Shown here: piece by piece, positions 2,725-45,836 of the stretch | Layout of the letters: each line of letters opens with the position of its first letter | Numbering within the stretch: position 1 is the stretch's first letter | IMG/VR virus record: IMGVR_UViG_3300045120_000461 | Span: 1 to 45,836 of that record | Direction: 5' to 3' (one strand) | Length of the DNA: 45,836 bases | Source: a virus | The notes under the pieces: model-generated | What the model saw: only the letters and a program-made list of their open reading frames with translations | What the model was told of the DNA's origin: nothing | Database searches by the model: none | Translations under genes and position numbers: made by a program

Positions 2725-3645
2725 CTAGCTGGAGGGTGCTCCGGCAATTCCATAGAAGCCGTTATAGCCGCAACTCATTCTTTGCCACCCGGCCGTCTTC
2801 ACCGACCGCGAATCGAAGTCGAGGTCGTGGACCGTGTTGAACGCCTCGCGGTTGTACCAGCGCAATTCAGTGTCGCCGACGTTGCCCTCAATGAACCAGG
2901 CATCGGGATCGCTGAGATAATCCCAGACAACCCATGTGTCAAAGCTGGGCATTCCCGAGCGGCGCCGGAACGCGTTAATGGCGCGGTTCGCGGTGTCCGG
3001 ACGATCCACGCCACCCAGCAGCTCGGCGCCGATAAATTCGAGCGCCGGCGGGAAGATTGCTTTCCGCGGGGGGATGCGGATCTTCTTGCCGCGATGATCG
3101 ACGGTCGTGCGCATCAGCGTCAGCATGAGCTGCATCGAAGTCACGTCGGGGTCCGACGCGTACGAGAGCTTATTCGACTGCGTGCCGCCGCCGATCAGCG
3201 GATGCGCGGTCGAGAACAGCGCCACGCCGTCCGGCCCCGTCGCCGACGTAAAGCCGGTATTGAACACGTTCGCCGCCAGAACTTCGCGCGTTTCCTTGGC
3301 CGAGCGGCCCAGCTCGGTCGAGAGCTTGCGCACCACGCCGTATTTGTCGTCATCCATTGCGACTTTCGTGACGCGAAAGCCGAGCGAGTACTGCGCGTGA
3401 ACATAAGTCCGGTTGAAGCCCGGCAGGGCTTCGTCGTATCGCGTGTCGCCGCCTTCGGGCACGACGGACATCTGCCCGAAGCCCGTCACTTCCGTCGTCT
3501 GCTCGATCGAGCGCGACGACGTTTCCATGCGGAAGACTTCCGAGAATTCCTCGGGGAACTCGGAGTATTTGGTCATAACGACTTCATCGATCGCCGGCAG
3601 CATCGACTGCAGATAGAGATCGGGGAAAAGTGTGCGAATGAACAT
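2725..3645 (-). CDS. Major capsid protein, Mu gpT-like, 306 aa
   Basis: ATG at 3645 has a strong AGAGG ribosome site in TCTGAGAGGAAACC. The sequence fits the gpT-like major head subunit family: an N-terminal F-x-E-x-F helix region, TGFGQMSVVPEGGDTRYDE near residues 54-72, the LGFRVTKVAMDDDKYG strand near residue 88, the LAANVFNTGF...GVALFSTAHP segment near residues 125-150, and a C-terminal strand with WYNREAF. This family forms the HK97-fold shell in many phages. It follows the scaffold-like gene in order and has typical length. It is the best-supported head gene after terminase and portal. Confidence 0.88.
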   Translation of the reverse strand: MFIRTLFPDLYLQSMLPAIDEVVMTKYSEFPEEFSEVFRMETSSRSIEQTTEVTGFGQMSVVPEGGDTRYDEALPGFNRTYVHAQYSLGFRVTKVAMDDDKYGVVRKLSTELGRSAKETREVLAANVFNTGFTSATGPDGVALFSTAHPLIGGGTQSNKLSYASDPDVTSMQLMLTLMRTTVDHRGKKIRIPPRKAIFPPALEFIGAELLGGVDRPDTANRAINAFRRRSGMPSFDTWVVWDYLSDPDAWFIEGNVGDTELRWYNREAFNTVHDLDFDSRSVKTAGWQRMSCGYNGFYGIAGAPSS

Positions 3646-20854: not shown

Positions 20855-21224
20855 ACTCGCCCCGCCGCGGATAGAGACTCCCTTTCCTTTTCTTCGGAAC
20901 GCGCCATCTTCGCGTTCCCCCTTGTGCTGAATGCGGAAGGTGCGTCAGAATAGACGGCACGTCAGCATTGTTTCCATGCTGGCCCTTCCAGGGTGCCCAA
21001 ATTACGGCATTCGCGCTGCTTTTTCCGGGAAGATTCGGCAGCGTGATGCCGTTAAGAGGTGGGCTCTGGAGGCCCTCTTCGGTTGGGGCCGTAGTCACGG
21101 CAGCATAATAAGAGATTATCGACCATGTCCATTTTGCGACTGGTCTGCATCGTACTCTATTTTCCTTGCCATTGTCGAGAATCGCGGTGTAAGATTCAGG
21201 CAGTTTTCTGCCCGCGGTTCCATA
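20855..21224. promoter_or_regulatory. Divergent intergenic region between initiator and integrase genes, rich in inverted repeats
   Basis: This 370-base region separates the minus-strand replication operon from the plus-strand integrase. Visible structures: a two-part hairpin (ACGGCAT...ATGCCGT, 21004-21052, enclosing CGCTGC/GCAGCG), AAGAGG/CCTCTT at 21054-21079, GCCGT-AGTC-ACGGC at 21088-21101, and ATAAT/ATTAT at 21105-21119. It should hold both promoters and possibly operator or recombination sites. No clear -35/-10 pair was seen. A 102-residue minus frame and the upstream extension of the integrase frame both read as non-coding. Confidence 0.5.
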
Positions 21225-28200: not shown

Positions 28201-31200
28201 TTCCCGATCGCGAATTCATTCAGTGCCTCGCCCGCCGCCTTCCGTTCGGTGTACTTCTTCCCGTTGACCGTGATCGACCAGTCATCCGGATCTTTGGACG
28301 TATTCGTATCACGCGTGCGGATGTCGGCTTCCAGCTTCGGCAGCCAGTTCTTCGCGCGGGCAATCTCCTGTTCCATCCGCATCGTTTCCCGCCGCGCGTC
28401 GTCCTGCTTTATCGCGTAGTCCGATTCGAGCGCCGAGAGCCGAAAGACTTCAGCATCCACCGTCGCCTTCTCCTTCACCAGCGGATTGCCCGTCGCCGCG
28501 GCTTCGGCTTCCGACGCCCCGAGCGAGTCCTGAGAGATGTCTTCGGCTTCGCGCAGCCCAAGATCGCCGCGCATCACCTGATTGATGAATTTGGCCTTTC
28601 GCGCCACCATCCCCCACATGTAGGCGTCGAACGACGGCGCCGTGACGTAGCGGACGATGTGGACTTCCGGGTTCGTATTGCCCTGGCGCAGAATGCGCCC
28701 CTCGCGCTGTTCCACGTCGCGCGGACGCCAGGGAACATCCAGATGGTGGAGGGCAATCAGACGCTTCTGTACGTTCGTGCCCGCGCCCATCTTGGCGGTC
28801 GAGCCGATCGTGATGCGGATTTCGCCGTCGTTCATCTTCTGCTGCCAGACCGCTTTTTTCGCGTTGGTGTCGGCATCGTGAACAAAGGCGATTTCTTCCG
28901 CCGGCACGCCTTTCAGCGTGAGCTGGCGTCGGAGTTCGTCGTAGACGTTCCACCCTTCACCGGGCGTCGAAAGATCCGAGAACACAAGCTGCGTGGTGCG
29001 CTTCTCTTTACCCTGTTCCCACAGTTCAAAGATCCGGTTCGCCGCGAGCGTGACCTTGCCGCCCTCCGGATCGCGCGCCATTCCGACCAGGCGCAGATCG
29101 AGCGCTGCCTTGCGCCCGTCGCTCGTCACCTTCAGCATGTTGTCTGCTTTGGGGTTGACGTTGCCGCGCTTAATACGCTGAATGCGGCCCATGATCGAGC
29201 CCGGCTGCCAGCCGCCGCGCTCGTCCTTCGCCATGATGAAATCGCGCAGCGCCTGGGTGGCCGGAATGGTGACGGTTTCGTACTTTCCTTCCGCCAGTTT
29301 CGGAACGGGCAGCTTCAGCATCTCGGCGGTTTGCACGTCGGCCACGGCGCGGAACAGGTTTTGCAGTTCGGGCAGGTTGGTGAACTTCGCAAATCGCGTG
29401 TTGGTGCGGAAGCCGGCGCCATCGGGCGAGATTTCCTGACCGGTCACTGTCTCGCCGAAAACCTGCGCCCATGCATCGAACATGCTGACGCCGGCCTCGT
29501 CGAGAGCTTTGGGCGCGAGGTAGCGGAGCATGGTGTACATTTCCGCGACCGTGTTTGAGATCGGCGTCCCGGTGGCGAACACGAGGCGCCCGTTCGCTTT
29601 ATCGGTGACATGGCGCGACTTCATCAGCATGTCGAAGGCGCGGTTCGATTCCGTGTTCGGAATGCCGGCGATGCGTGTGGCCCGCGTCGTGAAGTAGAGG
29701 TTCTTGAACAGATCGGCCTCATCGACGAAAAGAGCGTCAACGCCCATCTGTTCCCACGTCAGCGCGTCGTCCTTGCGCGTGTCGGCTTTCTCGCGCAGTT
29801 TGGCTTCGAGCCGCTTCTTGGACTTTTCCAGTTCCTTGCGCACCCGTTTGTCGGCTTTGCCGCTCGTCGCAGCCATCTCGCGCAGCGCCTCTTCAAGCTG
29901 GTCGATTTCCTTCTGGAGAAACATATTGAAGGTTTCGTCCGAGACGGGAATCAGGCCGAGCGCGTCGTGCGAAACGATGGCCGCGTCGTAGTTGCCGGTC
30001 GCAATCTGTGCCATCGCCTTCTGCCGGTTGCCCTTTTGAAACGTAGTTTCGTCGGCCACGAACAGATTGGCCGCGGGGTAGAGATGCTGGAATTCCCGGC
30101 CAAACTGGCCCACCACGTTTGCCGGCACGGTGATGAGGGGCTTTTTGGCGAGTCCGAGACGGCGCAGTTCCATCGCCGCCGCCGCCATCTCGTACGTCTT
30201 ACCCGCCCCGACGACGTGCGCGAGCAGTGTATTCAGGCCCGAGGAGACGACGCGCCAGATCGCGTTCTCCTGGTGCGGCCTGAGCGTGACCGAGGGATTC
30301 ATGCCCCGGAACGTCAGGTGCGAGCCGTCGTACTGCCGGAGCCGCGTTCCGTTGTACGTTTCGTTGTAATACTTTTCGAGCGCGTCCCGGCGCGTTGGGT
30401 TTTCCCAGAGCCACTGGCTGAACCGGTCGCGGATTTTCTTCTGCGCTTCCTGCGCCGCCGCGGTCGCGCGGGGATCGACGACGGTTTTATCCTCCGATAC
30501 CCGGACGCGCACCGTCGGCACTTTCATGTTGAGCGCCTGTTCGATGAGCTTGTCGGCCGGCATTCCGCCGCCCGCCCACTGCGACTGGTTCTGCACGGTT
30601 TGCGTGTTGTCTATCTGGACTTCCCACAGCGCCAGCGGCTTGGCGTAAGCGACATTCACGCCGCGCGGCTGGACGCCGAGCAGTTCGGTGATGAACTGCT
30701 TCACTACCGGCGCCGGAATCCACGGCGAACCGAGACGGCCCTTGATTTCTGTGCCGCCCTTCAGATCGGGCGGCTTTACGGCTTCGAGCGCCGCAATGTT
30801 GCGCTCGTACGAGGGATCGGCTTTCGCCATGTCCCGCGCCTGGGCGAGCTTCTGGCGGACGTCGCCGGAAAGGTACTGGTCTGCGGTCTGCCACTGCTGC
30901 GTCTCCGGATCGCGGTAGATGCGTTCGCCCAGTTCGTCCTGCAGCGCCTCCGGATCGAGGCCGGTAAGCTGCGCCATCCGCGTCCAGTTGAGGCGCCCGT
31001 ACTCGTTGAGCGAAATGGTCAGGGCTTCGAGAGCGTTGCCCGCCGACTGAACGGGTTTGTAAGCCTGCACGACGGGCTCGGTGAAGATGGCTGTTTTTTT
31101 CGCCGTCTTCGTTTTGCGGTCGTACTTTTCGAGCGCGAGAAGAGACGGCGCGTCCGGATCGCCGCGGAAGGCGCGGACGTTGGCGTCGTCGTTCAGATTG

Positions 31201-34200
31201 CCGTATTTCTTTGCGAAGGAGTCGTAGACCTTCCCGAGCGCCTTCCGCGCCGCCACCTGTTCCGCTTCCGGCTTGTCCTCCAGTTGCGTGCGGAAAACCT
31301 CGTGCATCGCATCGCGCACCGGGATCATGCCCTTTACGCGCGCTGCCGATTCCCGGCCCGCTTCAACCGGTTCGAGCGTTTCGCCCGAGCGCCTTATCAG
31401 TTTTCCGTCCACGATGCCGAAGGCGTTCTGTTTGAGATGGCCGGCTTCGGGGTATTCGGCGGCTGCGATCGCATCGGGTTTAAATGCGTCCGCTGTGGGG
31501 CGTTCGGTCAGCACGTTCCTGGGCAGGCGGGCGATCGCGCCGGCCAGGGCTTCCGGCGTCACCTGGCCGAGCACGTTGATTTCAGGACCGAAGCGACCGC
31601 GATTGCCCTTCACCGTTCCGAGAATCATTTCCGGGTGGCGCGTGTAGTAGTCGTTCTGATACGGGTTGTCCTCGTCGCCCGGAAACAGGTTGGTGGGGGA
31701 GGCCTTGACGAAGTCTTCTACCTCCGATGCGTCTCCGGGCAACCGCTTCTGAAGGAAAACGATGTCGGTAACGACCGTCGTGCCGGCGTTTTTCTCAAAT
31801 GCGGTCTGCGGCAGCCGGATGGCGCCGAGGAATTTCGCCTCGCGCTGGATGTACTCGCGCACGGCGGGGTCTTTGCCGTCCATCGTGTAGCGCGAAGTGA
31901 CGAAAGCGACGATGCCGCCCGGACGTACTTTGTCGAGCGCCTTGCCGAAAAAGAAATCGTGAATCGAGCCGGTGAGGAAGCGGCGCGGGCCTTTGAAATC
32001 GCGGTCGAACACGCCGTAGTTGCCGAACGGGACGTTCGATACTGCGAGGTCAAACCAGTTATTCGGGAAGCGGGTCCGCTCGAAGCCCGTCGGAAATACC
32101 GCCGCGTTCGGGTAAAGCAGGGCGGCGATGCGGGCCGTGACGGGATCGAGTTCGACGCCCGAGAGCTTCGCGCCCGACTGAAGATCGTCCGGCATCAGGC
32201 CGAAGAAATTGCCCGAACCCATCGAGGGTTCGAGCGTAGACAGTCCGGGCCGCGCGCCGAGATGCCGAACCGCGTCCCAGATCGCGCGAACCACCGGTTC
32301 AGATGTGTAGTGCGCGTTGGGCGTCGTCGCCGCGGCTGTTTTCCATTCTTCCGGCGTCAGCGTGTCGCGCAACTCGCCCGCTGTCTGTCTGAGAGCCGCC
32401 GTCGTCTGGTAGTGCTCGAACACTTCGGGCAGAGCGCCCCATCCGGTGTATTTGACGAGCTTCTTCTGTTCGTCGAGCGTCGCCGGCCGGCCTTCCGCTT
32501 CCACCTGCTTCATGGTGCGGATGGCTTCGAGGTTCGCGATCGCCTTGTCGGACAGCGATCCTTCGCCGAGATGATCGGCGCCGGTGATGCGGTAGCCGGT
32601 GAGTCTGGGGCGATTGTCTAAGGTTCGGGGTGGTCGGGGAGGTCGGGTAACGCGGGTGACGGGACCATCCAGATTTCCCTCGTCAGTTCGTCCGCCTGAT
32701 CCGGGTTCAGGCCCTGGCCGATGTACTGGCTGTAGGCCCGGTTCGCCTGGTCCGCCGTGGACTTCAGCACTTGCTGGAGCTTGCCCTGGCTTTCCATTTG
32801 CTTTACCGCTTCCGGCTGCGCCTGGTTCCAGTGTTCCAGTATCTGCGCCTGAAACGGTGTCAGTCCCGTGAGGTTCGCCACCCTTCGATTGTCGCTCAGG
32901 TTTCGGTTCCGGCGCCGCGGTAACCTCCGCAGCGGCGGGCTGCGCGGGTGTTTCAACGGGTTGCACGGGTGGGGCATCGACTTCTGCGACAGCCTGCTTG
33001 TACGGCGTGCCCGCCTTTACCTTGTCGCGGATCGCCCTGGCGCGCGTGACGTTGGGCTTCTCGGCTTTCGCCGCCCCGCGCACGCCTCCGGTCGCGAACG
33101 TGGGGAGCACGTACTTCGTGTCCGGTTCGTTCGGCACCTGCGGTGTGACGACTGGTTTCTTCGGCGCGGCGGGCGGCTCCGCTACTTTCGTTTCGGCGGG
33201 CGCGACGGCGGCTGCGGGTTCCCCGCCGCCGCGTTCAGGGACGCGAGCAGGTTCGGCGGGCGTTTCGCGTTCGGGCGCGGGCGGTTCGGGCGGGGTGGTG
33301 GTCGTTTCATGGGGTGGCTCCTTCGTTTCGGGTTCGGCGCGTTCTCGTGTAAAGCGTGAGGGCGTCCCGTTGATCTGTGAACTGAGCTTGGGATACTCAT
33401 CGGGATGGACAAAAACGTCGCCGCTTTCATCTCCGGGGGGGCGCCATGTCTCCGGGGGAAAATCATCCCGATGTGCGGTTAGAATCTCCCCACCCGGTCC
33501 CTCCCGTTTGGCATAGGAAAGAGCCTCGCCGCGATGCTGCGTCCACCACGGCGATGGCGGCTCAGCAGTCCCGGCCTTACTCTTTCTCACTCCCTGGTAA
33601 TAGTGGCTGTTTATCGGCTTCGTTTCCGGCGCGATCGGCGCTGGCGCGGGCGTTTCGCCCTTCGCGGCGGGCGCGGGCGGCGCAACGGGTTTAACGGGTT
33701 CCGGCGCGACGGGCTCCGCGACCGGCGCAGCGACGGGCTGCGCGGGTTCTTCGACGGGTTGCGCGGGCGTTTCGACGGGTTGCGCGGCCTTCGGCTTCGC
33801 GGGCGCGGGTTCGCCGCCGACGCGCCGGCCCGTGATCGTGTACTCGGGCGCGGCGGACGCTTCGGCTTTCGGCGCGGCCTTTGCGAACGTCTCTCGCGCG
33901 CCTTTGACCGCGTGCCGTCCGGCCGCGGTCGCGAGGCCGAGCGTCGCCGCCATTTCGGTGAGCGTTTTCGTCGCCCCTTCGGTATCGCCCTTTTTGATTT
34001 GCTGAATCAGTTGCGGCGACTGCTTCAACGCGCTGTGAATCATGTCGAGCGAGAAGCCGCCCGACACGAGCTTCTGAATCCGCGGCATGTACTTCGCGCC
34101 GACTTCGGCGAGCCGCCCCACCGCGGGCTCGGAGAGCTGGGAGAGCTTGCCGGCGCCGCCGAGCCCGCCCGTCGCCAGCAGGAGCGCGATGCTTTTCGGC

Positions 34201-34796
34201 GTGGTGAAGCCGCTGAGAAAGTCCTGGGCCCCTGCGGTGAATCCCCGGTTGACGGGTCCGCCCGTGATCTGTTTCGCGTTGGCGCCGAAATCGACGAGCG
34301 GCGCGTCGGGGTTGTAGGGCGCCTGCGCGCCTTCGCGCACGCCCCGAACATTGCCATACGCACCGTTCGGCCCCGTGAACGGTGCCATCAGGCGTTCGAG
34401 GACCGTCGGCGCGGGCGCGGCGCCGATTGTCACTATCGCCCGCGCGTTCTCCGTCGCTATTCTGAGCGCGTCGTCGGGATGAACGAGTTGGTTGGATTGG
34501 TCGGCCAGCCGCTGCAGACCGTTCGGCTGCGCAACGGGCGCAACGCCGGTCTGCATGGGTTGCGCGGCTGGTTGCGCGGGTGGCTGGACGTCGAAGCCGG
34601 GCGGCAGGCCCGCGGTCGGCGTCGCGGCGCGGCCTGGCGGCTGCGTGGGCGCGGGCGCGTCCGCGTAATCGTCGTAGGCGCCAGGGAATTTCGCTTTGAC
34701 GCGCCGCCCTACCTCGTCGTCCGGAAGGTCGTCGTACTGGCCGGCGTATTTGGCTTTCACCGCCTTGCCGAGATCGTAGACAGTTGTCTCGGGCAT
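25263..34796 (-). CDS. Giant polyvalent virion protein: DarB-like adenine methylase plus SNF2/DEAD helicase, 3,177 aa
   Basis: Residues 8-46 carry the duplicated KAKYAGQYDDLPDDEVG / KAKFPGAYDDYAD motif typical of large phage and plasmid polyvalent proteins. Residues 50-740 are Pro/Ala/Glu-rich. An N6-adenine methylase follows: SAM motif LEPSMGSGNFFGL near 862 and catalytic SNVPFGNYG near 920. A superfamily 2 helicase comes next: GAGKT near 1530, VDEAD near 1690, TGTPISNTVAEM near 1743, REGRILRQGN near 2035. A long helical C-terminal part (NNVLNQFQLGLSAFHLGF near 2655) resembles polyvalent-protein domains seen in virion proteins. P1 DarB protects DNA from host restriction; Bcep22-type podoviruses carry similar giants. 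The role, likely injected with DNA, is inferred. It accounts for 21% of the genome. Confidence 0.88.
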   Translation of the reverse strand: MPETTVYDLGKAVKAKYAGQYDDLPDDEVGRRVKAKFPGAYDDYADAPAPTQPPGRAATPTAGLPPGFDVQPPAQPAAQPMQTGVAPVAQPNGLQRLADQSNQLVHPDDALRIATENARAIVTIGAAPAPTVLERLMAPFTGPNGAYGNVRGVREGAQAPYNPDAPLVDFGANAKQITGGPVNRGFTAGAQDFLSGFTTPKSIALLLATGGLGGAGKLSQLSEPAVGRLAEVGAKYMPRIQKLVSGGFSLDMIHSALKQSPQLIQQIKKGDTEGATKTLTEMAATLGLATAAGRHAVKGARETFAKAAPKAEASAAPEYTITGRRVGGEPAPAKPKAAQPVETPAQPVEEPAQPVAAPVAEPVAPEPVKPVAPPAPAAKGETPAPAPIAPETKPINSHYYQGVRKSKAGTAEPPSPWWTQHRGEALSYAKREGPGGEILTAHRDDFPPETWRPPGDESGDVFVHPDEYPKLSSQINGTPSRFTRERAEPETKEPPHETTTTPPEPPAPERETPAEPARVPERGGGEPAAAVAPAETKVAEPPAAPKKPVVTPQVPNEPDTKYVLPTFATGGVRGAAKAEKPNVTRARAIRDKVKAGTPYKQAVAEVDAPPVQPVETPAQPAAAEVTAAPEPKPERQSKGGEPHGTDTVSGADTGTLEPGAAGSGKANGKPGQAPASAEVHGGPGEPGLQPVHRPGPEPGSGGRTDEGNLDGPVTRVTRPPRPPRTLDNRPRLTGYRITGADHLGEGSLSDKAIANLEAIRTMKQVEAEGRPATLDEQKKLVKYTGWGALPEVFEHYQTTAALRQTAGELRDTLTPEEWKTAAATTPNAHYTSEPVVRAIWDAVRHLGARPGLSTLEPSMGSGNFFGLMPDDLQSGAKLSGVELDPVTARIAALLYPNAAVFPTGFERTRFPNNWFDLAVSNVPFGNYGVFDRDFKGPRRFLTGSIHDFFFGKALDKVRPGGIVAFVTSRYTMDGKDPAVREYIQREAKFLGAIRLPQTAFEKNAGTTVVTDIVFLQKRLPGDASEVEDFVKASPTNLFPGDEDNPYQNDYYTRHPEMILGTVKGNRGRFGPEINVLGQVTPEALAGAIARLPRNVLTERPTADAFKPDAIAAAEYPEAGHLKQNAFGIVDGKLIRRSGETLEPVEAGRESAARVKGMIPVRDAMHEVFRTQLEDKPEAEQVAARKALGKVYDSFAKKYGNLNDDANVRAFRGDPDAPSLLALEKYDRKTKTAKKTAIFTEPVVQAYKPVQSAGNALEALTISLNEYGRLNWTRMAQLTGLDPEALQDELGERIYRDPETQQWQTADQYLSGDVRQKLAQARDMAKADPSYERNIAALEAVKPPDLKGGTEIKGRLGSPWIPAPVVKQFITELLGVQPRGVNVAYAKPLALWEVQIDNTQTVQNQSQWAGGGMPADKLIEQALNMKVPTVRVRVSEDKTVVDPRATAAAQEAQKKIRDRFSQWLWENPTRRDALEKYYNETYNGTRLRQYDGSHLTFRGMNPSVTLRPHQENAIWRVVSSGLNTLLAHVVGAGKTYEMAAAAMELRRLGLAKKPLITVPANVVGQFGREFQHLYPAANLFVADETTFQKGNRQKAMAQIATGNYDAAIVSHDALGLIPVSDETFNMFLQKEIDQLEEALREMAATSGKADKRVRKELEKSKKRLEAKLREKADTRKDDALTWEQMGVDALFVDEADLFKNLYFTTRATRIAGIPNTESNRAFDMLMKSRHVTDKANGRLVFATGTPISNTVAEMYTMLRYLAPKALDEAGVSMFDAWAQVFGETVTGQEISPDGAGFRTNTRFAKFTNLPELQNLFRAVADVQTAEMLKLPVPKLAEGKYETVTIPATQALRDFIMAKDERGGWQPGSIMGRIQRIKRGNVNPKADNMLKVTSDGRKAALDLRLVGMARDPEGGKVTLAANRIFELWEQGKEKRTTQLVFSDLSTPGEGWNVYDELRRQLTLKGVPAEEIAFVHDADTNAKKAVWQQKMNDGEIRITIGSTAKMGAGTNVQKRLIALHHLDVPWRPRDVEQREGRILRQGNTNPEVHIVRYVTAPSFDAYMWGMVARKAKFINQVMRGDLGLREAEDISQDSLGASEAEAAATGNPLVKEKATVDAEVFRLSALESDYAIKQDDARRETMRMEQEIARAKNWLPKLEADIRTRDTNTSKDPDDWSITVNGKKYTERKAAGEALNEFAIGNRLDDTTHKAGTYRGFTIETRGMGASQAPRTSFRGEALHYFNLNPESGQGTMQSLDAQLRGLDGLAGDYRQKIEKGEEKLTRLRVEAATPFPDGATLDGLVKRQAEIAKALDLDANAAVIDEAETDMPEPDADGASEDPNAPALETPPKKNPEAGGALLDFLTLGLTQFAQTDVAPALRDVAQGMRETGRDALKALAPTLFDRDAEDASLVLRGKLAELARKADRARDTLAKASAYFARQPAAENLDFIDRMELGQRQKNADLDAIAFRLRTLLDDKRADVQSLGTGKLKNFYTDYFPHIWKNPRRAKTMFQAFFGKRPLEGGKAFLKKRSLPTIADGLAVGLEPISDNPVTMTLLKVHEMDRYVMAHETLAEWKQRGLAKFFRGNRPPPNGWTRIDDSISTVYGRNAAGETIVRGHYYAPEGAARIMNNYLSPGLRQYAGYRAIAGLNNVLNQFQLGLSAFHLGFTAADTTVSKAALGYQALMRGRPIKAAKYFAQTPAAAFTTYLKGDKLLREWYRPGSQGAVIGNLVDNLVTAGGRARMDQMYRTEIAEKMREALRHGNIIGAALRAPFAGVEYLSNLLMNEAVPRMKLGAFADLARFHLDELGPNATFDEARRVLTQDWNSVENRLGEMTYDNLFWNKMAKDLAMIAVRSVGWNLGTLREVGGAIGDIGLQPYNALKGKPVNLNRLSYLLGLVTVNAVMSAVYQYLKTGKGPDEIEDYFFPKNGETDEAGHPQRVSWPTYVKDVYHYATQPARTIANKAAPIWSALAEMAHNKDFYGNQIRNPDDPLVTQLLDLAKHAAKQAIPIGVRNYQRETALGGSLSTRGEQFVGVSPAPSDLDKTPAERLAAKLSAERTGDEPGRPAEAAERRDLRQSLVRALRNNKPVPKEVLDAMKAGKLRTADVKAARQRAHESPLEAAFARLTIGDALKVYRASTADERRRLRGMLLKKGTAALKSEAPAERLKTAQELRKALAVQ

Positions 34797-36223: not shown

Positions 36224-36763
36224 TTACAATTTCCCCGCAATACTGGGGAATCCTGCGCCGACGTCAGCCCCGATACCCCAGCCGGAACTGCTGCCCGTGC
36301 TGGTTCCCGACTCGCTCAGGTTCTGCGTCAGGCCGAGCGACTGGAACGCGTAGTTCAGCGCAGCCATCAGGTTCTGCGAATTCACGCCCTGCTGCACCTG
36401 GGCGAAATTAGCCTCGTTTCCGGCGAGCTGGCTCTCCCTTCCCAGTTCGCTTTGCAGCGTCGCCTTTCCCGTCGTTCCCGACTTTCCGAACCCGCGCGCG
36501 GCGAGGAACTGGTTTACCCGGTCCAGCAGTCCGCCCGATGTCTTGTTGATCGAGTCCGCCGCCGCCGTCTTCTGCGCCGCGACTCCCGGCGAGAGCGTTC
36601 CCGCGTCCGACGCCGCCAGATTCGACGCCAGGCTCGACCCCAGCCGGTTCTGCAGCGCCGTCTGTGGCGCCCCGTAGGTATTCGCCTGCGTCCCCGAAGA
36701 GGTACCCGTCGAGGTCGCGCTGGTTTGCTTCGATGAGTACCCGCCGCTTAGACTCGCGCCCAT
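36224..36763 (-). CDS. Gly/Ser-rich helical virion protein, 179 aa
   Basis: ATG at 36763 has a very strong ribosome site (GGAGGAG, four bases upstream). MGASLSGGYSSKQTSATSTG leads into a low-complexity Ser/Thr/Gly stretch, then helices (ALQNRLGSSLASNLAASDAGTLSPGVAAQKTAAADSINKTSGGLLDRVNQFLAARG). A Gln/Asn-rich helix and a Gly-rich tail follow. This texture resembles small internal or ejection proteins of podoviruses. Its first 356 bases overlap the end of the GNAT-like gene in another frame. Confidence 0.7.
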   Translation of the reverse strand: MGASLSGGYSSKQTSATSTGTSSGTQANTYGAPQTALQNRLGSSLASNLAASDAGTLSPGVAAQKTAAADSINKTSGGLLDRVNQFLAARGFGKSGTTGKATLQSELGRESQLAGNEANFAQVQQGVNSQNLMAALNYAFQSLGLTQNLSESGTSTGSSSGWGIGADVGAGFPSIAGKL

Positions 36764-37241
36764 AAAACTCCTCCCGTGTCATGCCGATCAAAACCACGTC
36801 CGCGGGCTTCGCCCCGCGCAGTATCGCGCCCCGCAGCGTGCCCTCGATCGTTCCGCCGATCGCGACCGCGAGCCGGATCGCGGCGCGGTTCCACGCGGGC
36901 ACGAACGCCTGGATGCGGATCATCTCCGGATGCTCCCGAAAGAACAGGTCCGCCGCGGCGCGGTACTCCGCCGCCGGCGTCGAGCGCATCCGCCGCGAAA
37001 GCAGAATGTGCGCGATGGCAACCACCTGGCTGGTGCGTTCGAAGATGATGACGCCGTTTAGAGTGCCGTTTGCCCATACGCCGTAAGTCCACGCGTCCGC
37101 GAACCGCGTACTGTAGTGTTCGACAAATTCCGCCAGCGTCTGCGGGAAGAAGTCGTCGAGCGCGTTGCGGCGGCGAGACGTCGCCCATTCGAACGCCGCG
37201 GGCCAGGCGAACGCGGGGAAGCCGGCGCGAACGTCGATCAC
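36408..37241 (-). CDS. GNAT-like acetyltransferase-fold protein, 277 aa
   Basis: GTG at 37241 overlaps the previous TGA as GTGA and gives VIDVRAGFPAFAWPAAFEWA. Residues 45-160 fit a GNAT layout: YGVWANGTLNGVIIFERTSQ, a helix with AAADLFFREHPEMIRIQAFV, AWNRAAIRLAVAIGGTIEGT and LRGAILRGAKPADVVLIGMT. The classic R/Q-x2-G-x-G/A pocket is not obvious, so acetyl-CoA binding is uncertain. Similar GNAT-like proteins occur among podovirus virion genes. The last 118 residues overlap gene 36224-36763 and are Gly/Arg-rich, as in a shadow frame. Confidence 0.65.
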   Translation of the reverse strand: MIDVRAGFPAFAWPAAFEWATSRRRNALDDFFPQTLAEFVEHYSTRFADAWTYGVWANGTLNGVIIFERTSQVVAIAHILLSRRMRSTPAAEYRAAADLFFREHPEMIRIQAFVPAWNRAAIRLAVAIGGTIEGTLRGAILRGAKPADVVLIGMTREEFYGRESKRRVLIEANQRDLDGYLFGDAGEYLRGATDGAAEPAGVEPGVESGGVGRGNALAGSRGAEDGGGGLDQQDIGRTAGPGKPVPRRARVRKVGNDGKGDAAKRTGKGEPARRKRG

Positions 37242-37414
37242 GCGACGAACGTCCACGCGCCGCCGCCGCCGGCGGGGGGCGGCGCAGTGATGTCGAGGCC
37301 CACAAACAGACCGTAGGGGATGACCTGCGAGGCCGAAAACTGCGCCGGCTGGATCGCGGGATCGCCAAACGTGAACGCCGTAAACACTAATGGAGTAACT
37401 GGCGGTGACGACAT
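37238..37414 (-). CDS. Small virion-region protein, 58 aa
   Basis: ATG at 37414 directly follows the previous TAA. The protein MSSPPVTPLVFTAFTFGDPA continues with IQPAQFSASQVIPYGLFVGL and ends PPPAGGGGAWTFVA. It is Pro/Phe/Gly-rich with no charge clusters, ends in a GTGA overlap with the GNAT-like gene, and is not recognised. It probably is a small tail or fibre accessory. Confidence 0.65.
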   Translation of the reverse strand: MSSPPVTPLVFTAFTFGDPAIQPAQFSASQVIPYGLFVGLDITAPPPAGGGGAWTFVA

Positions 37415-38327: not shown

Positions 38328-38885
38328 TCAGCTCTTTTGTATGTAAATCGTCACGGTTGCACGCTTCCACGTCGCCGCCGCCGTCAGATTAAACCCGAAG
38401 ACGTCCCACTGCGCGACCGCGTTCGCCCACGTCGAGACGCCCGCAACGCCCGCCGACGCCGAAACCGCCGCCGCGAGCGCGACGGGCGCGGACGCGCTGA
38501 TCTTGTCGGTCGTCGTGTTCGGTTCCGACGGCGCGGCGGGCGGCGCCGAAGATGCCTTCTTATCGATCTCCATCGTCAACGAGCCGACAACATCCGCGAC
38601 CACGGCCCAGCCGACGATCGTTCCCGCATACGGAACCTGAATATATCCCTTGTGCCCCGTCGCCGGCGTCGAGCCGGCGCCGTCGATCGTGACGCCGACC
38701 GTGCCGTCCTGAACGCCCGCGCCTGGCCCTGGCGGTCCGGGTGGCCCTGCCGGCCCTGCTGACCCCGTCGTGCCCGTCCCCAGCGCGAGCGCGATGCGCC
38801 GCAGCCGGTCGTTGATCTGCAGCACGAGGTCGGAGCCCGCGACGCCCTGCGGCAGCGGAGCCAGCGCGACGCGGTCGGTCGCCAT
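38328..38885 (-). CDS. Collagen-like tail fibre protein, 185 aa
   Basis: Start ATG at 38885 shares bases with the previous stop (TGATG). Residues 1-38 form a helical attachment region (MATDRVALAPLPQGVAGSDL...). Residues 41-56 hold a short collagen-like run GSAGPAGPPGPPGPGAG. The rest is beta-rich (VQDGTVGVTIDGAGSTPATG, YIQVPYAGTIVGWAVVAD, MEIDKKASSAPP). Collagen-like triple helices are common in trimeric phage fibres. It is a probable short fibre or fibre-tip protein. Confidence 0.75.
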   Translation of the reverse strand: MATDRVALAPLPQGVAGSDLVLQINDRLRRIALALGTGTTGSAGPAGPPGPPGPGAGVQDGTVGVTIDGAGSTPATGHKGYIQVPYAGTIVGWAVVADVVGSLTMEIDKKASSAPPAAPSEPNTTTDKISASAPVALAAAVSASAGVAGVSTWANAVAQWDVFGFNLTAAATWKRATVTIYIQKS

Positions 38886-41800
38886 CAGCCTGCCTCCAGA
38901 ACATCGAATGGAACGTCAACTAAGCCCCATGCGTTCGACGTCTCGTCAGCCGCCGAGCCGCCCCCCGCCGCGCCCATGATGTCGGTATATACGGGGACCA
39001 CCTGCGAGGGCTCGATTGGAAAATCGGACCACGCCCACGCGGCCTCGGGATCGGTCATGGTCCGCGACCACACGCGGATGTGATACACCCGCGCCGGCAT
39101 CGTGCCCGAGAGCCTGACGCGCAGCAAACGCCCGCGCACGCCCGGCACGAGCGGCACGAGCAGCGTTTCGCGGCCGTTCGGCGTCGCCAGCGCAGGCGCG
39201 TAAACGGGCGCCAGCCGGTCGCCGTCCTGATTGGTAATCACCTGCATATCGACCACGCCGTCGGCGCGCATGTCGATCTCGATGCGCTTGAACATTTTCA
39301 GCCGTTCGGTCTGGTAGTCGAATTCGAGGGTATTGAAAGCGTCGTCGAGCAAATCGGGCGCGGTGCCGATCAGGAAACGCCCAATGCGGTTGTGACGAAC
39401 CTGGGCGCGATAGATGCGGTAGCCCGCGCCGGAAACCCTCAACTGCACCGAGCGGGCTTCTATGCCCTCCGGAACGGGCACAGTGACCCATCCCCGCGTC
39501 CGCGTGCCCGTCGTGAGCGTGTAGACGCCCTTTGAGGTCTGTTGTTCACCCGCCAGATCGGTAAAAACTTCTACCGAAGCCGCGCCCGACGTTTCCATCT
39601 CAAAGCGGATCTGGTCGATGGTCGACACTTCACCGTCCGCCAGCGCGACCTGCATGGAGTCCCACACGAAGCCCGCCGCCGATTCGTAGCCCTCGACCGC
39701 GATGCCGATGACGCGCATGAGCAGCCGCGCCGAATAGAGGCGGAACGGGCCGCCGCCGAGCACGGGTTGCCACAGAAAGCCCTCGGTGGTCGGAAACGGG
39801 AACTTCCGGATCGCGCGCCCCGCGGCGCCGACGACGATGGTTTGCCGGATCGCGAGCGCGTTGCCGGGCAGATCGCTCACGATGTCCACTGTGACGGGTC
39901 CGCCCGTTGAGTCGATGTCGAGTTCCAGCTCCTTGCACTCCTTGACCTTGCCGACGCCGAGATCGGTCGGCAGCGTCGAGGCGAGCACCGCGACGCGCGA
40001 CTCGGCGTAATAGAACAGGTAGACGTTGTGAATGGTCAGTTTGCCCGCGGTCTGCGCGTCGAGGAACACGGCCATATTGCGGGCGAGGTAGCCGCCGTCC
40101 CTGCCTCCAGGAAGACCGCCAGGGGCAAAGCTGATCGTCCTGCGCGGTCCCCCTGGGTAGAGCGTCCCGAGCAGCGCGGGCGCGATATTGCCCGCGTTGA
40201 AGCCAACATAAACCTGAATCGGCGCGCCGGCCACGTACTCGTAGTCAATCGCGACCTCCAGCCACTGCTTATCGTTGTCGGGCAGGCCGCAGTCCTCATA
40301 GTGCGAGCCGTACACGCATTCGATGGGGATCGAGCCCTCGTCCTGGGTGAGGAAGCCGCGGAAGTCGGCCAGCGAATAACCCTGCGCGACCGCGCCCCCG
40401 GTCAGCCCGATCATCTGCGTGCCGTCGAAGAAGAAGCCGAGGAAGCCGATAATGCCGGGAATCGCGTGCCGTTCGTAGAACCAGCGCCCGGCGCGCGGTT
40501 GCGTAAACGCCTGGCGCTCCGGTTCCGGCCCTTCGTCGAACACCAGCAGGTTGTACCCGGTCCCCGACACCGTGTTTTCGGCGTAGGAGACGAACAGCCG
40601 CCCGAGCGCGTGCCCGAGCGAGATCGCGTACGCCGACGTCGAGCCCGCGAGAAACGCCGAGCCCGGCAGGACGTTCCCAGGCGGCGTGAGCGGCCCCGCG
40701 TTGACGATCTCCTGATTGAACAACGGCAGGATTGCGCCCTGAATCGCGTGGACCTGCGCCATGTCGAACAGGTGCAGGCCGTTGGGTGCGACGAAATAGT
40801 CGATTTGCCCCGCGGGCGCGAGCGCGAACTGCCCGGCGAGGCCCAGCCCGTCGTAAGCCTGTTCGAGCGTCGATGTCGTGGGATCGGCGCCGATGTTGAC
40901 CCAGATCGAACGTTCCTTGTAGATCACGAGCAGATTGGAGTGGATCGTGCACCAGACGATTTCTTCGTCGTCGAGGCCGACGTCCACCCAGTTGCCGATC
41001 TGCGGATCGTTCGAGCCCGGCCAGTATTGCGGAAGGTTGGGCTCGGTCCAGAACAGCCGGTTCTTGTGCTCTGCCGTGTTCCACGCGTACAACCGCGAGA
41101 AATGCGGTCCGATCATGCCCGACGCGGCGGGCGGCGGATCGTGATCGATCGGCATCTGAATGCCGTTGGCGATGGCCGCGGCGTCGGGCAGCGAGTACGT
41201 GAACGTCGTCGCGGGCGAGGCGACCGTCGAAATCACCTGGCCCACACGGTAAGCCCCGCCCAGCGTGCCGCCGGTTGCGTAGATGTTCACCCAGAAGACG
41301 CGGCCATCGGTGGGCGCGTCCTGGGGTGGTGGTGGGCCAGTGGGGATCGTCACCTGAATCGCCTGCGCCGATACCGTGATCGCCGCCGACGCGGGCGACG
41401 GATTGGATTCCAGCGAGCCATCCGCGTTCATGAATGTCAGATAAATCTGGTAGGTGCCATCGGGCAGGGTGCCGAGGCCGGGGAGGCCGTTACAAAGGCT
41501 GGCGTTGGGATTGCCGTCCGAGCCCGAAACCGCGATCAGCGTATTAGGCACAAGCGGCGTAATGACCACGTTGTCGCCCGTGCCCGGGTAAGTCACCGAA
41601 GCGTTGGGATCGGTCTGGGCGAGCAACGAAGCGACGAGCGCGTTGCGCCCCGCGGCGGCGCCTTCCTGCCAGCTATAAACCACGCCCGCGATGGTGAGCG
41701 AGTGAATGAACTCGGGGTCCGGATTGACGGGGTACGTGTAGGTGACGTTCGGGACTGTGCCCGGCGCGACGACCGCGGCGAGCGTAGGCGACGCCGGCGG

Positions 41801-42220
41801 AGGCGCGATATTCCAGCCCTCGACCGCGCCCATGCCCGGCTGGTGGCGTCCCTGTTTGCCGCGGTTCATCACCCACATGAAGCCGTTCTGCGCGGCGAAC
41901 GCGATGCGGTTGCCGTCGAAGCCGTAGGAAATGATTACCGAATCGTAAAAGAGCGGGTTGCCGCCGGGCGCCGCCGGGTCGAGGTTCGCGCCCACGTAAA
42001 GCGGGGTGCCGGCCGCGCCCGCCGAGCCCGCCGAATGCGCCCGCGCCGCGCCCGTGAGCGTGAACGCGAGCGGGTAGCCGGGGCGAGAGATCAGACGCCC
42101 GAGCGCATCACTGCGGAAGTTCTGCGCGAGCAGGTAATCGGTTTGCGGCAGTTTATCCGGGGGCGGCAACACGTTGAAGCCACCGCCGAGGATCTGCAGG
42201 CTCTTGCGCTGATAGCTCAT
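38885..42220 (-). CDS. Large tail protein (nozzle / tail-hub type candidate), 1,111 aa
   Basis: ATG at 42220 overlaps the previous stop as ATGA and gives MSYQRKSLQILGGGFNVLPP. The motif LPQTDYLLAQNFRSDALGRL-ISRPGYP near residues 25-50 is typical of large podovirus tail-tube or nozzle proteins that start with a list of input variables. Strand-rich segments follow throughout (DRNRLFWTEPNLPQYW-type, VQVYVGFN). The end reads AWGLVDVPFDVLEAG. I infer tail assembly from size, start motif and position. The plus-strand frame over most of it is a shadow. Confidence 0.7.
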   Translation of the reverse strand: MSYQRKSLQILGGGFNVLPPPDKLPQTDYLLAQNFRSDALGRLISRPGYPLAFTLTGAARAHSAGSAGAAGTPLYVGANLDPAAPGGNPLFYDSVIISYGFDGNRIAFAAQNGFMWVMNRGKQGRHQPGMGAVEGWNIAPPPASPTLAAVVAPGTVPNVTYTYPVNPDPEFIHSLTIAGVVYSWQEGAAAGRNALVASLLAQTDPNASVTYPGTGDNVVITPLVPNTLIAVSGSDGNPNASLCNGLPGLGTLPDGTYQIYLTFMNADGSLESNPSPASAAITVSAQAIQVTIPTGPPPPQDAPTDGRVFWVNIYATGGTLGGAYRVGQVISTVASPATTFTYSLPDAAAIANGIQMPIDHDPPPAASGMIGPHFSRLYAWNTAEHKNRLFWTEPNLPQYWPGSNDPQIGNWVDVGLDDEEIVWCTIHSNLLVIYKERSIWVNIGADPTTSTLEQAYDGLGLAGQFALAPAGQIDYFVAPNGLHLFDMAQVHAIQGAILPLFNQEIVNAGPLTPPGNVLPGSAFLAGSTSAYAISLGHALGRLFVSYAENTVSGTGYNLLVFDEGPEPERQAFTQPRAGRWFYERHAIPGIIGFLGFFFDGTQMIGLTGGAVAQGYSLADFRGFLTQDEGSIPIECVYGSHYEDCGLPDNDKQWLEVAIDYEYVAGAPIQVYVGFNAGNIAPALLGTLYPGGPRRTISFAPGGLPGGRDGGYLARNMAVFLDAQTAGKLTIHNVYLFYYAESRVAVLASTLPTDLGVGKVKECKELELDIDSTGGPVTVDIVSDLPGNALAIRQTIVVGAAGRAIRKFPFPTTEGFLWQPVLGGGPFRLYSARLLMRVIGIAVEGYESAAGFVWDSMQVALADGEVSTIDQIRFEMETSGAASVEVFTDLAGEQQTSKGVYTLTTGTRTRGWVTVPVPEGIEARSVQLRVSGAGYRIYRAQVRHNRIGRFLIGTAPDLLDDAFNTLEFDYQTERLKMFKRIEIDMRADGVVDMQVITNQDGDRLAPVYAPALATPNGRETLLVPLVPGVRGRLLRVRLSGTMPARVYHIRVWSRTMTDPEAAWAWSDFPIEPSQVVPVYTDIMGAAGGGSAADETSNAWGLVDVPFDVLEAG

Positions 42221-42915
42221 TCGCCTTCGCCCCACAGATGCTGAAAGACCTGTTCCATGAGGCGGCACCTTTCCACGAGGTGCGCGGCGACTTCCGGCTT
42301 CGCGTGGTCGGACTCCTTCCCGAGCGCCTGCGCGAGCATGAAATTTGTAAAGTAATCCTGACAGATTGGGCTCGCCGGAATATCCGACGCGCCCGCCACG
42401 ACCGTGTGCGGCAGGTACTGCTCGACCTGCGCGAGCGTCGCATTCGTGACGGGCACGGGGTAGAGCGTGGCCGTGCCCGTGCCGCCGGCGTCGAGCGAGA
42501 GGCGCACGGGCGCGCCCGTCTTCACGCCCCAGTTGGCGTCGAGCGCGAACAGTTGCGCCACGTTCGAAAGCCGCAGCATCTGGACCGGCGCCGCCGGGTA
42601 CGCGAGCCACGCGATCACGGTAAACGCGTGCTCGGCGGGCAGCGTGTAGCGCGCCGTGCCCGCCGCGAGCGCGACCGAGGCGTCGTACTTTTTGAAAAGG
42701 CCGAGCGCGTACGTAAGGCGCTTCACGGCTTCGTCCGCGTATTCGTAGAGATCGTCGAGGGTCGTCCAGCGGTCATCGACGGCCATGTCTTCGGCGTTCA
42801 TAAAGCCGAGCCTGTACCAGCATTCGTTCACGCAGTTGTTCGCGTCGCAGCCGGGAAGCGGCGTGCCCGGCGTGGGCGAAAGGCCCCAGAGTTCATTTCC
42901 CCACGGTGACGGCAT
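42217..42915 (-). CDS. Adaptor-like structural protein, 232 aa
   Basis: Start MPSPWGNELWGLSPTPGTPL at 42915, adjacent to the tailspike stop. Residues 25-75 hold NCVNECWYRLGFMNAEDMAV and a helix (LYEYADEAVKRLTYALGLFKKY). A middle of strands follows (ARYTLPAEHAFTVIAWLAYP, RLSNVAQLFALDANWGVKTG, TLYPVPVTNATLAQVEQYLP), then a helical C-terminus (DYFTNFMLAQALGKESDHAKPEVAAHLVERC). This L-D-x2-W...GxP...LYPxP plan resembles the adaptor-like genes at 1644 and 679, so it may be a third connector ring protein. Unproven. Confidence 0.7.
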   Translation of the reverse strand: MPSPWGNELWGLSPTPGTPLPGCDANNCVNECWYRLGFMNAEDMAVDDRWTTLDDLYEYADEAVKRLTYALGLFKKYDASVALAAGTARYTLPAEHAFTVIAWLAYPAAPVQMLRLSNVAQLFALDANWGVKTGAPVRLSLDAGGTGTATLYPVPVTNATLAQVEQYLPHTVVAGASDIPASPICQDYFTNFMLAQALGKESDHAKPEVAAHLVERCRLMEQVFQHLWGEGE

Positions 42916-45534
42916 TTAGCGCCCGCCAGGGTTGGCGATCGAGAACATATAACAACCGGGGTCGGTTGTGGGCGGGGTTCCAACAGCGACGTGGAAAACA
43001 TTTCCTGCCCCTATGAAGACCACCGGGCCGGTATCGTTAACCGCACAGGCAGGTACGCCCAGCGTCACAGCCGGGCCGTTAATGCCAGGTCCGAGATTTT
43101 TCACCTGCTGCACGCTGATCGCCGCGCCGGCGCCGGCAGCGGTAACGCCGACTGCCGTGGTGAAGACGTCCGACGCGAATGTGCCCGCGGCGACCGTGAA
43201 ATATCCATAACTGGCGTCACCGCACGAAATAGTGGGAGGGGTTGCCTGCACACACATCGGTGCTCTGTTGTAACCATCTGTTGCCCACTTGCCCGGCGCC
43301 CCCGCCGTGGTATTAATCCACCCGGACGGAGCGTTCACCGCGGGGTTGTTGCCGATTCGCGCGCCCACTGCCCAGGTGCCCGCCGTCGGAATCGCCGGCG
43401 GCGGAGAGTACAACACTGTGCAGCCGGTGCAGGTATTTCTTCCGCTTCGTATCTGAGAGCCGCCGCCGGCAATGCCGGTGTCGTCCTGAATGCCGTAAGT
43501 CAGGGTATGGCCATTGTCATTCGCGAAAACATTGTCGAAAACGTCTATATCCCGAGTGGTCGTGCCGCCTGCGTTGTTGATAAGCAATCCGGCATACCCC
43601 GGCCCCGCCGTCATGCAGTTGTGGCAGGAATTGGACTGAACAGTAAATCCGGTGCTGCCGATCAGCCCGAATCCCCCGTTTTTCGCATTGCTGCAGTCGT
43701 TGTGGGAGATAACGCCGCCGTCGGCGAACCAGACCTGCTGGCAGAGGTTCACGTTCTCCAGATGCGTATCGGTGACGGTGATATCCACACCGCGCAGGGG
43801 GCTCGGGCCGTTGTAGGTGGACACGATGAGAAACGGCTGCCCCACTGTCGGACTGTTGCTCACCGAGATCCCGTCGACATGGCCGCGCTGGCAGGGAACC
43901 TGCAGGAGCGTTCCGCCGGGAATCGGTATCTGGAGCGTCGAGCCGAAGCAGTAGAAGCCGAATGCGTCGTTAGTCAGATTACTGATCCGGGTGGAAGTCA
44001 CATTCCAGTTGGATACGCCCTCCAGATTCAGCGCGGCGAGTGAAACCGACTGGTTGCCGCAGGTAGGGTTGTTGTCGAAGAAACATCCCTGAGTGGGGCT
44101 TCCATCGAATGTCATATTGCTCATCGTGGCGTTGGCGTTTGGCATCTGAAACAAACCCATACCGGCATTGATGAAGGTCATGTTTGAGATGGAGATGTCC
44201 TTCAGAAAGAAGTTCAGTCCAAGGCCGAGCGGTTCGTTAATGGACGTAATCCCGCTGATGTTGAAGCCGCTGTAATAAGCCGGCGAAGCTGTCGGAGTGA
44301 AGGACGAGAAGGATACCCCAAAGAAATAGTTCTGGTAACTGGTGGAATCGGTATATTTAACGTGCTGGCACGGCGAGCACTGAATGCCGACGTTCTTGGC
44401 GTTGGCCGTGTAGAGATGGTAAAGGTCTACGCTCGCGGGCGGAGTTTCATTCATGAACGCGCCGGGTCCGGTGATGTAGATGTTATGGCCGCTGAAATCC
44501 TGCTGTCCGGATCGCTGCCCGTCGGTGCCAAAGTCGTGCAGAGTGACCGCGCCGGTGGTGATGATCTGGAACATACCGCTGTGGCTGGTGGAACTACCGT
44601 TGATATAGGTCGGATTGCACCCGCTGGGCCCACCGAACGGGTGAAAGGTTGTCGCGTACATTCCGTCCCCGTAGATGGTCACCGGCCCCGTGCCGGAAAC
44701 GCTGGCCTTGCAGACCAGATAGGCCTGCGCCGATGCCGGGAATCGCAGCGGCTTCGACGACGCCATCGTCGTTTTCATCGCCGCGGAAACGAAAGTTGTG
44801 TTGTCGGTCGCGCCGTCGCCTTTGATGCCGAACCACTGCGCCACCGGCTCCATTGGCCCGCTCAGGATGAAGTCGCCGCCCGCCGAATAGTCGAAGATTT
44901 TGATCGCAGGCGCCGTTACCGCGCCCGCCAGTGTCACGGTTGCGCCGTTCGCCGGCTGAATAATACCGCCCTGGAAAACCTCAATCGTTGCCGCGCACGT
45001 TCCCGTCGCGACGTTTGTCCACGAGGCCGTCAGCGCGAGCGTCCAGCCCTGCGCGGCCGCATCCCCACACGCCTGGTAAAGCGTTTTCCCCGCCGTCTTA
45101 TACACGGCGTCTGAGAACAGACGCGGCATCGCGGTTTCGATCGCCTCGATCGCCGACGACTGCGCGACGTGATACCAGGAGTTCGTATTGAGATAGCCGA
45201 TCACGCCCGTTTTGTGCGCCGCGATGGTCGTCCCCGAAAGCCCGCGGCCGGCGAGCGACGGGCACGCCGTTGTCGTGCCGAGCGTGAGCACGTTACCCGA
45301 TTTCTGGCAAACCTGCACCAACTCCGAGCCGAAGGTGATGAGCGACCACACGGGGATCGGCGCCGCGTTGGCGACCGTCGCCGTGGTGGACGTCGTTGTC
45401 ATCGGCACGGTGAGCGCGGACTGAACCTTGTCCGCCGGCACGCCGAGCGTCGCGTCCGTATCGAGCGCCGCCGGAAACGGGCTCGTCTGCGCGGCGAGAG
45501 CCACGGGAATGCAGAGAAGGAGGAAAGCTCTCAT
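42916..45534 (-). CDS. Tailspike with N-terminal signal peptide, beta-helix fold, 872 aa
   Basis: ATG at 45534 gives MRAFLLLCIPVALAAQTSPF, a Sec signal peptide with A-x-A cleavage site. Residues 20-130 are an N-terminal domain. Then WFGIKGDGATDNTTFVSAAM near residue 236 is the classic G-x-KGDGxTD start of a right-handed beta-helix depolymerase or pectate-lyase-like domain, followed by many GINISN-type strands (SISNMTFINAG, RISNLTND, DIDVFDNVFAND) to about residue 700. The end has a GPGINGPAVTLGVPACAVND-type beta region. Many Cys come in near-pairs (CSPC, CHNC, CTGC, CQKSG), which suits an oxidising compartment. It probably binds and cleaves surface glycan; the signal peptide is unusual for a tailspike. 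Confidence 0.82.
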   Translation of the reverse strand: MRAFLLLCIPVALAAQTSPFPAALDTDATLGVPADKVQSALTVPMTTTSTTATVANAAPIPVWSLITFGSELVQVCQKSGNVLTLGTTTACPSLAGRGLSGTTIAAHKTGVIGYLNTNSWYHVAQSSAIEAIETAMPRLFSDAVYKTAGKTLYQACGDAAAQGWTLALTASWTNVATGTCAATIEVFQGGIIQPANGATVTLAGAVTAPAIKIFDYSAGGDFILSGPMEPVAQWFGIKGDGATDNTTFVSAAMKTTMASSKPLRFPASAQAYLVCKASVSGTGPVTIYGDGMYATTFHPFGGPSGCNPTYINGSSTSHSGMFQIITTGAVTLHDFGTDGQRSGQQDFSGHNIYITGPGAFMNETPPASVDLYHLYTANAKNVGIQCSPCQHVKYTDSTSYQNYFFGVSFSSFTPTASPAYYSGFNISGITSINEPLGLGLNFFLKDISISNMTFINAGMGLFQMPNANATMSNMTFDGSPTQGCFFDNNPTCGNQSVSLAALNLEGVSNWNVTSTRISNLTNDAFGFYCFGSTLQIPIPGGTLLQVPCQRGHVDGISVSNSPTVGQPFLIVSTYNGPSPLRGVDITVTDTHLENVNLCQQVWFADGGVISHNDCSNAKNGGFGLIGSTGFTVQSNSCHNCMTAGPGYAGLLINNAGGTTTRDIDVFDNVFANDNGHTLTYGIQDDTGIAGGGSQIRSGRNTCTGCTVLYSPPPAIPTAGTWAVGARIGNNPAVNAPSGWINTTAGAPGKWATDGYNRAPMCVQATPPTISCGDASYGYFTVAAGTFASDVFTTAVGVTAAGAGAAISVQQVKNLGPGINGPAVTLGVPACAVNDTGPVVFIGAGNVFHVAVGTPPTTDPGCYMFSIANPGGR

Positions 45535-45552: not shown

Positions 45553-45836
45553 TCAGGCGAGTACTGGCCGTTTCGCCGCCGGCGCCGGCGCGACCTTCAG
45601 CAGGCGCGAGCGGTCGAAGTTCCGCAATTCAAAGGGAAGCGAATCATAGCCCCCTCCGCGGTTCTTCGCGCGCACGAAGTCGGCGCATTTCTGCGCCGCG
45701 TCGAGGAACGACGCCAGCAGCGGCAGCGTCTTCGCCAGCTCCGCCGCGCCTTCCACCTGGCGCAGCCTCGCGATCGCGTAGTTCACCAGTTCCGGGTGGT
45801 ACTCCTCGGGAATCTCAGGAGTTTGAATATCGAGCA
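45553..45836 (-). CDS. Adaptor-like structural protein, C-terminal part (continues from 1-679)
   Basis: Bases 45807-45553 complete the gene that starts at 679. They encode EEYHPELVNYAIARLRQVEG, then AAELAKTLPLLASFLDAAQKCADFVRAKN, and end PAPAAKRPVLA before TGA at 45555-45553. This is the helical C-terminal domain. The bases to 45836 repeat the window start. Reading the window without the join would give a false start at 45786. Confidence 0.8.
   Translation of the reverse strand, partial: LDIQTPEIPEEYHPELVNYAIARLRQVEGAAELAKTLPLLASFLDAAQKCADFVRAKNRGGGYDSLPFELRNFDRSRLLKVAPAPAAKRPVLA
45807..45836. repeat. Terminal direct repeat, right copy (30 bp, one mismatch)
   Basis: It matches bases 1-30 except for T at 45828 against G at 22. 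See the left copy. It shows that the two ends belong together. Confidence 0.85.

Follow-up and report, generated by a model that had tools for sequence, protein, structure and literature searches.

The window analyzed here, 45,836 bases that make up an entire virus record of IMG/VR, encodes within its structural module a tailspike-like protein with a predicted cleavable Sec signal peptide and closely paired cysteines, and signal-bearing proteins recur at the equivalent position in related phages. We place at slightly better than even the reading that the spike is exported, cleaved, and disulfide-folded, and that it would then dock onto the virion at or after lysis. By the textbook account, tailed phages are assembled in the cytoplasm; classical tailspikes fold there and are not known to carry a signal.

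Tailed-phage genes for the large terminase, portal, and major capsid protein are found on the minus strand of the window (Table 1). The ends of the record (positions 1-30 versus 45807-45836) overlap by ~28 nt with one mismatch, and when they are joined, an adaptor reading frame is nearly continuous across the junction, the remaining end of the upstream adB-family adaptor gene running from window position 1 onward. Given this overlap and the nearly continuous frame, this record, which comes without a completeness value, probably represents a circular map and a nearly complete genome. An integrase gene is present, and the phage is therefore probably temperate. The stop codon of the upstream adaptor gene is followed after 18 nt by the spike start, and the ATG of the SU10-type adaptor abuts the spike stop codon, which places the predicted spike gene in the structural operon. 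No other large variable spike candidate was recognized in the window tail module. The tail module also contains an Acyl-CoA N-acyltransferase-like gene, and Alcaligenes phage vB_Af_QDWS535 likewise has an annotated GNAT gene in its tail region.

Table 1. Features of the window and of the spike gene (window coordinates).
Feature	Position	Strand	Details
Major capsid protein, structural module	2725..3645	-	query that found 74 related loci
Integrase	20931-22205	+	PHROG 1
DarB-like methyltransferase/helicase polyvalent protein	25263-34796	-	3177 aa; end of tail module; PHROG 10089, 1e-276
Acyl-CoA N-acyltransferase-like gene	36408-37256	-	tail module; PHROG 4470
Large conserved tail/hub protein	38885..42220	-	used for finding relatives
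SU10-type adaptor gene	42217..42915	-	ATG directly after spike stop codon
Tailspike-like gene, predicted exported	42916..45534	-	872 aa precursor; ATG start at 45534, runs down to 42916 including stop; 22 cysteines in mature part
Probable pectate-lyase-like right-handed beta-helix, residues 235-679	43498..44832	-	GDGATDNT motif; below gathering
N-terminal anchor-type domain, residues 18-136	45127..45483	-	common to L002 (83%) and signal-less L055 homologue (37%)
First cysteine pair C76/C91, inside anchor-type domain	45262..45309	-	present in L002
Predicted Sec signal peptide, residues 1-15	45490..45534	-	cleavage after 14 or 15: VALA/AQ or ALAA/QT
Upstream head-tail adaptor gene (adB family), C-terminal end	45553..45836	-	18 nt before spike start

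The signal sequence claimed for the spike in the initial annotation is borne out by its layout. The N terminus, MRAFLLLCIPVALAAQTSPFPA, has an arginine in the n-region, an uncharged h-region of 12 residues, and an A-X-A before A/Q, giving a Sec/SPase I-type signal of the form MRAFLLLCIPVALA/AQTSPFP. Signals were called with our own rule-based heuristic scorer, not SignalP, and its false positives amounted to 2.4% of the shuffled N termini of the slot proteins described below and to 3/526 core structural genes from the same set of phages. The scorer recognized in the spike the basic n-region, uncharged h-region, and A-X-A-type site of Sec/SPase I signals, and it called both the spike (score 41.0) and its relative at locus L002 (39.6), in which the signal is retained as MRALLILCAAFVLTA/QQSPFP and all changes within residues 4-14 substitute hydrophobic or small residues for hydrophobic or small ones. 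The only cysteine in the signal of the spike, C8, lies in the middle of the h-region and is preceded by LLL. Export by the Tat route was rejected, as there is no RR before the h-region, and a lipoprotein processed by SPase II was rejected, as there is no lipobox ([LVI][ASTVI][GAS]C) at the h-region end. It is very improbable that the start codon is misplaced and that translation begins further in, which would leave the protein with no signal. The purine-rich AAGAGG before the ATG lacks the usual spacer and an in-frame ATG is found at codon 45, both in line with such a reading, but ATG1 and the hydrophobic segment are conserved in L002, and an internal start was rejected. A start at codon 45 would also cut into a domain that is homologous to a protein of locus L055 from residue 18 on, and similar signals recur in this slot on genes that are not related to one another.

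L002 is the only close relative and has a spike-type gene at the same locus. The two proteins are 79% identical over residues 1-136 and unrelated in detail beyond residue 136. The C terminus of the L002 protein matches Pect-lyase_RHGA_epim (PF12708) at 8.9e-17, above gathering, and its PDB sequence matches are a beta-1,3-glucanase and a pectin lyase. The beta-helix region of the window spike starts with a GDGATDNT-type motif, as in L002, and its matches are sub-threshold, with Pfam values of 6e-4 for Beta_helix and 0.088 for Pect-lyase (both below gathering) and 1e-4 for a PHROG tail fiber. A PDB sequence search with the window spike gave no match, and structure prediction from three sequences reached a pLDDT of 29. 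The label of tailspike given in the initial annotation is reasonable, being well supported by way of L002 and weakly supported for the window protein itself. Comparison with L002 reveals the conserved N-terminal domain, exchanged C terminus, and tail-module position of a tailspike, and these features, with no second obvious spike in the genome, suggest that the protein is a receptor-binding or polysaccharide-degrading tailspike.

Residues 18-136 of the spike also match a protein of L055 (E 7e-18) that occupies the same adB-SU10 slot, between two adaptor genes. This homologue has no hydrophobic segment and starts with MGTPVAVFPG, which aligns to the predicted mature start of the spike, AQTSPFPA. 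A second spike family, located downstream of the large tail gene, includes a protein with a signal in L007 and one without in L020 (BLASTP 9e-14). Given these two contrasts, the predicted signal behaves like a detachable prefix of tail-type proteins. With regard to start sites in relatives, to which the initial annotation had pointed as a check, the outcome is mixed, with the hydrophobic segment kept in L002 and absent from the more distant L055. However, since the L055 protein starts at the predicted mature N terminus, it speaks for a discrete, removable signal and not against it.

The least likely of the earlier guesses, and one that we regard as scarcely credible, is that of a secreted protein captured from the host; such a gene would be a lysogenic accessory with no role in building particles. 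The integrase makes accessory genes plausible in this phage, but the gene sits gapless in the head-tail operon, and L002 has it at the corresponding place. Another phage encodes a signal-less homologue of the anchor-type domain in this slot, the C terminus is exchanged as in tailspikes, and the N-terminal domain was found in phage records only. Scans of genome contigs for the host found no relative, and neither the spike nor a signal-bearing slot protein had a match in the public phage collection. Plasmid matches to the capsid protein are about 24-31% identical and uninformative on the host. The style of the signals, with A/Q cleavage, may resemble that of secreted proteins of Acidobacteriota.

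The 74 viral loci retrieved with the capsid protein have a syntenic module, in which genes for terminase, portal, and capsid and two small genes are followed by a variable slot, three adaptor genes, and the gene for a large tail protein. At least one signal-peptide ORF lies between the capsid gene and the SU10 adaptor in 26 of the 34 loci that span the module, and the opposite strand of the same regions has 4 such ORFs in all. After dereplication and with a strict score, 35 proteins of the variable slot have a signal and 18 do not, although 4 of these 18 plainly have signals by eye. The slot statistics exclude eight signal-positive ORFs, which lie upstream of the capsid gene and were not dropped for parity. 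The signal-bearing members have CBM5/12, collagen-like, F5/8, LamG, GDSL esterase, and pectate-lyase-like domains, and several match tail-fiber or tail-spike PHROGs. In a separate scan, all 12 readable CBM-type N termini had a hydrophobic, signal-like start, and the scorer called 11 of the 12, one of these 11 with a score slightly below the cutoff applied elsewhere. L055 and L026 each encode tail proteins both with and without a signal. No signal was found in the structural genes examined of four distant relatives from the public collection, three of which have named hosts. The variable tail-fiber slot of this clade is predicted to be dominated by Sec-exported, disulfide-rich proteins. It is a tentative proposal, to which we assign slightly less than an even chance, that a clade of short-tailed phages, soil-type by our impression, sends its receptor-binding proteins through Sec, forms their disulfides outside the cytoplasm, and completes the last step of virion assembly there.

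Small signal-less slot proteins of L020 (11593-12033) and L080 (11581-12030) start with MCPQGY..GG.C, and this motif immediately follows a signal peptide in L026, L023, and L050. A small signal-bearing ORF upstream of the capsid gene in L066 (6394-6933) has the look of a transglycosylase-type lysin and is possibly a Sec-exported endolysin.

The near-paired cysteines noted in the initial annotation are likewise confirmed. The spike has 23 cysteines, C8 in the signal and 22 in the mature part, and the latter form 11 neighboring pairs 3-31 residues apart, with equally tight pairing in 104 of 100,000 random placements. In the signal-less L055 homologue, both C76 and C91 are absent at the aligned positions, and the cysteine count is odd (11). 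Across the clade, the mature cysteine count is even in 40/40 complete slot proteins (two-sided binomial 1.8e-12) under an [A/G]-Q cleavage rule that was chosen after the data had been seen, and the raw cleavage call gives an even count in 38/40, the exceptions, L036 and L039, having a cysteine just inside the signal. The uncut precursors of the same proteins are even in 25/40, and the 15 proteins with an odd count inside the signal all turn even after its removal. Among core genes, the count is even in 149/340, near chance. The 40 proteins fall into 15 unrelated clusters and have between 0 and 22 cysteines, so that the even parity is more than a matter of inheritance. Close neighboring pairs are also enriched over 34 proteins (combined p about 2e-21). 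Exported, extra-cytoplasmic bacterial proteins favor even cysteine numbers, which is the basis for predicting DsbA substrates (PMC7678975), and the parity and pairing found here support export, signal removal, and disulfide folding of the slot proteins. Export and folding outside of the cytoplasm, as had been suggested for the spike, are supported by the retention of signal and start in L002, by the recurrence of similar signals in the clade, and by a parity that is perfect only after signal removal.

We consider it improbable that the hydrophobic N terminus is retained and serves a spike assembled in the cytoplasm as a segment for membrane seeking or assembly. A hydrophobic N terminus alone cannot prove cleavage, and the n-region, with its one arginine, is minimal; however, A-X-A-type sites lie at the ends of the signals, Q follows the predicted cleavage site in 36/40 slot proteins (partly a product of the cleavage rule), and signal-less homologues start at the mature position.

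For assembly of the virion, the favored model is that the spike, a tailspike-like receptor-binding or polysaccharide-degrading protein, would be made late, along with the head-tail proteins. It would leave the cytoplasm by the Sec channel of the host, lose its signal to signal peptidase I after residue 14-15, and acquire about 11 disulfide bonds as it folds in the periplasm. On lysis, the oxidized spike would encounter the particles set free from the cell and dock on the tail by its conserved N-terminal domain, so that the virion is completed outside of the cytoplasm. We infer translocation, cleavage, disulfide formation, and docking from sequence. Particles in the cytoplasm are out of reach of an exported spike, which, if it is part of the virion, would have to join them at or after lysis. 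Some podovirus tailspikes can be added in vitro to finished heads. It is possible, with a probability that we place at about a third, that the exported, disulfide-bonded protein is instead absent from the virion and works in free form as a depolymerase, a lectin, or a receptor-destroying protein; by stripping polysaccharide from the surface or the matrix, at lysis or earlier, it would help progeny to leave and not to re-adsorb to debris. The signal and cysteine evidence fits this equally well, secretion is the simplest fate of export before lysis, and the CBM5/12, F5/8-type, LamG, GDSL esterase, and pectate-lyase-like domains of the signal-bearing proteins would suit such functions; the coexistence of signal-less spikes in L055 and L026 could also mean that the exported ones are a separate, non-virion class. 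However, the N-terminal domain also occurs in a protein that has no signal and fills the corresponding structural slot, adaptor genes directly adjoin the spike gene, and no rival spike was recognized in the window tail module. Of the possibilities raised in the initial annotation, we favor a spike exported by a second route over a secreted depolymerase.

Several known systems share parts of this arrangement. Podovirus tailspikes with a pectate-lyase-like beta-helix, of the P22/LKA1 type, resemble the spike in their conserved N-terminal domain, their exchangeable C-terminal beta-helix (PF12708 in L002, probable in the window spike), and the position of their gene within a structural operon, whereas the window spike has in addition a predicted Sec signal and 22 paired cysteines. 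SAR endolysins and Rz1 lipoproteins use host export machinery, as proposed for the spike, but the segment of the former stays on the protein and Rz1 is lipidated (SPII), and neither a retained segment nor a lipobox fits the spike. Bacterial exported proteins that are DsbA substrates share with it a signal peptide and even, paired cysteines, although the spike is encoded in a phage structural module. Lys44 of Oenococcus phage fOg44 is an endolysin exported by Sec (PMC6116005) and, as predicted for the spike, a late protein whose cleavable signal peptide, a typical one, directs it to the host Sec route before lysis, but it is a lysis enzyme aimed at the wall and not a tail protein, and Sec-exported endolysins do not display the clade-wide use on tail fibers found here. 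Export of phage endolysins by Sec and phage lipoproteins are thus already known, and in the openly licensed literature, outside of which most subscription journals lie, we found Sec-exported endolysins and no report of an exported, disulfide-bonded tailspike.

If the spike-slot proteins join particles, these virions would be completed outside of the cytoplasm; otherwise, the tail operon would release an arsenal of secreted depolymerases and lectins. Disulfide-stabilized depolymerases could be robust enzymes. A signal peptide within a phage structural module is readily put down to mis-annotation, and such signals merit systematic calling. Extra glycosyltransferase-like ORFs are inserted between capsid and tail genes in L012 (7398-8447) and L024 (6269-7042).
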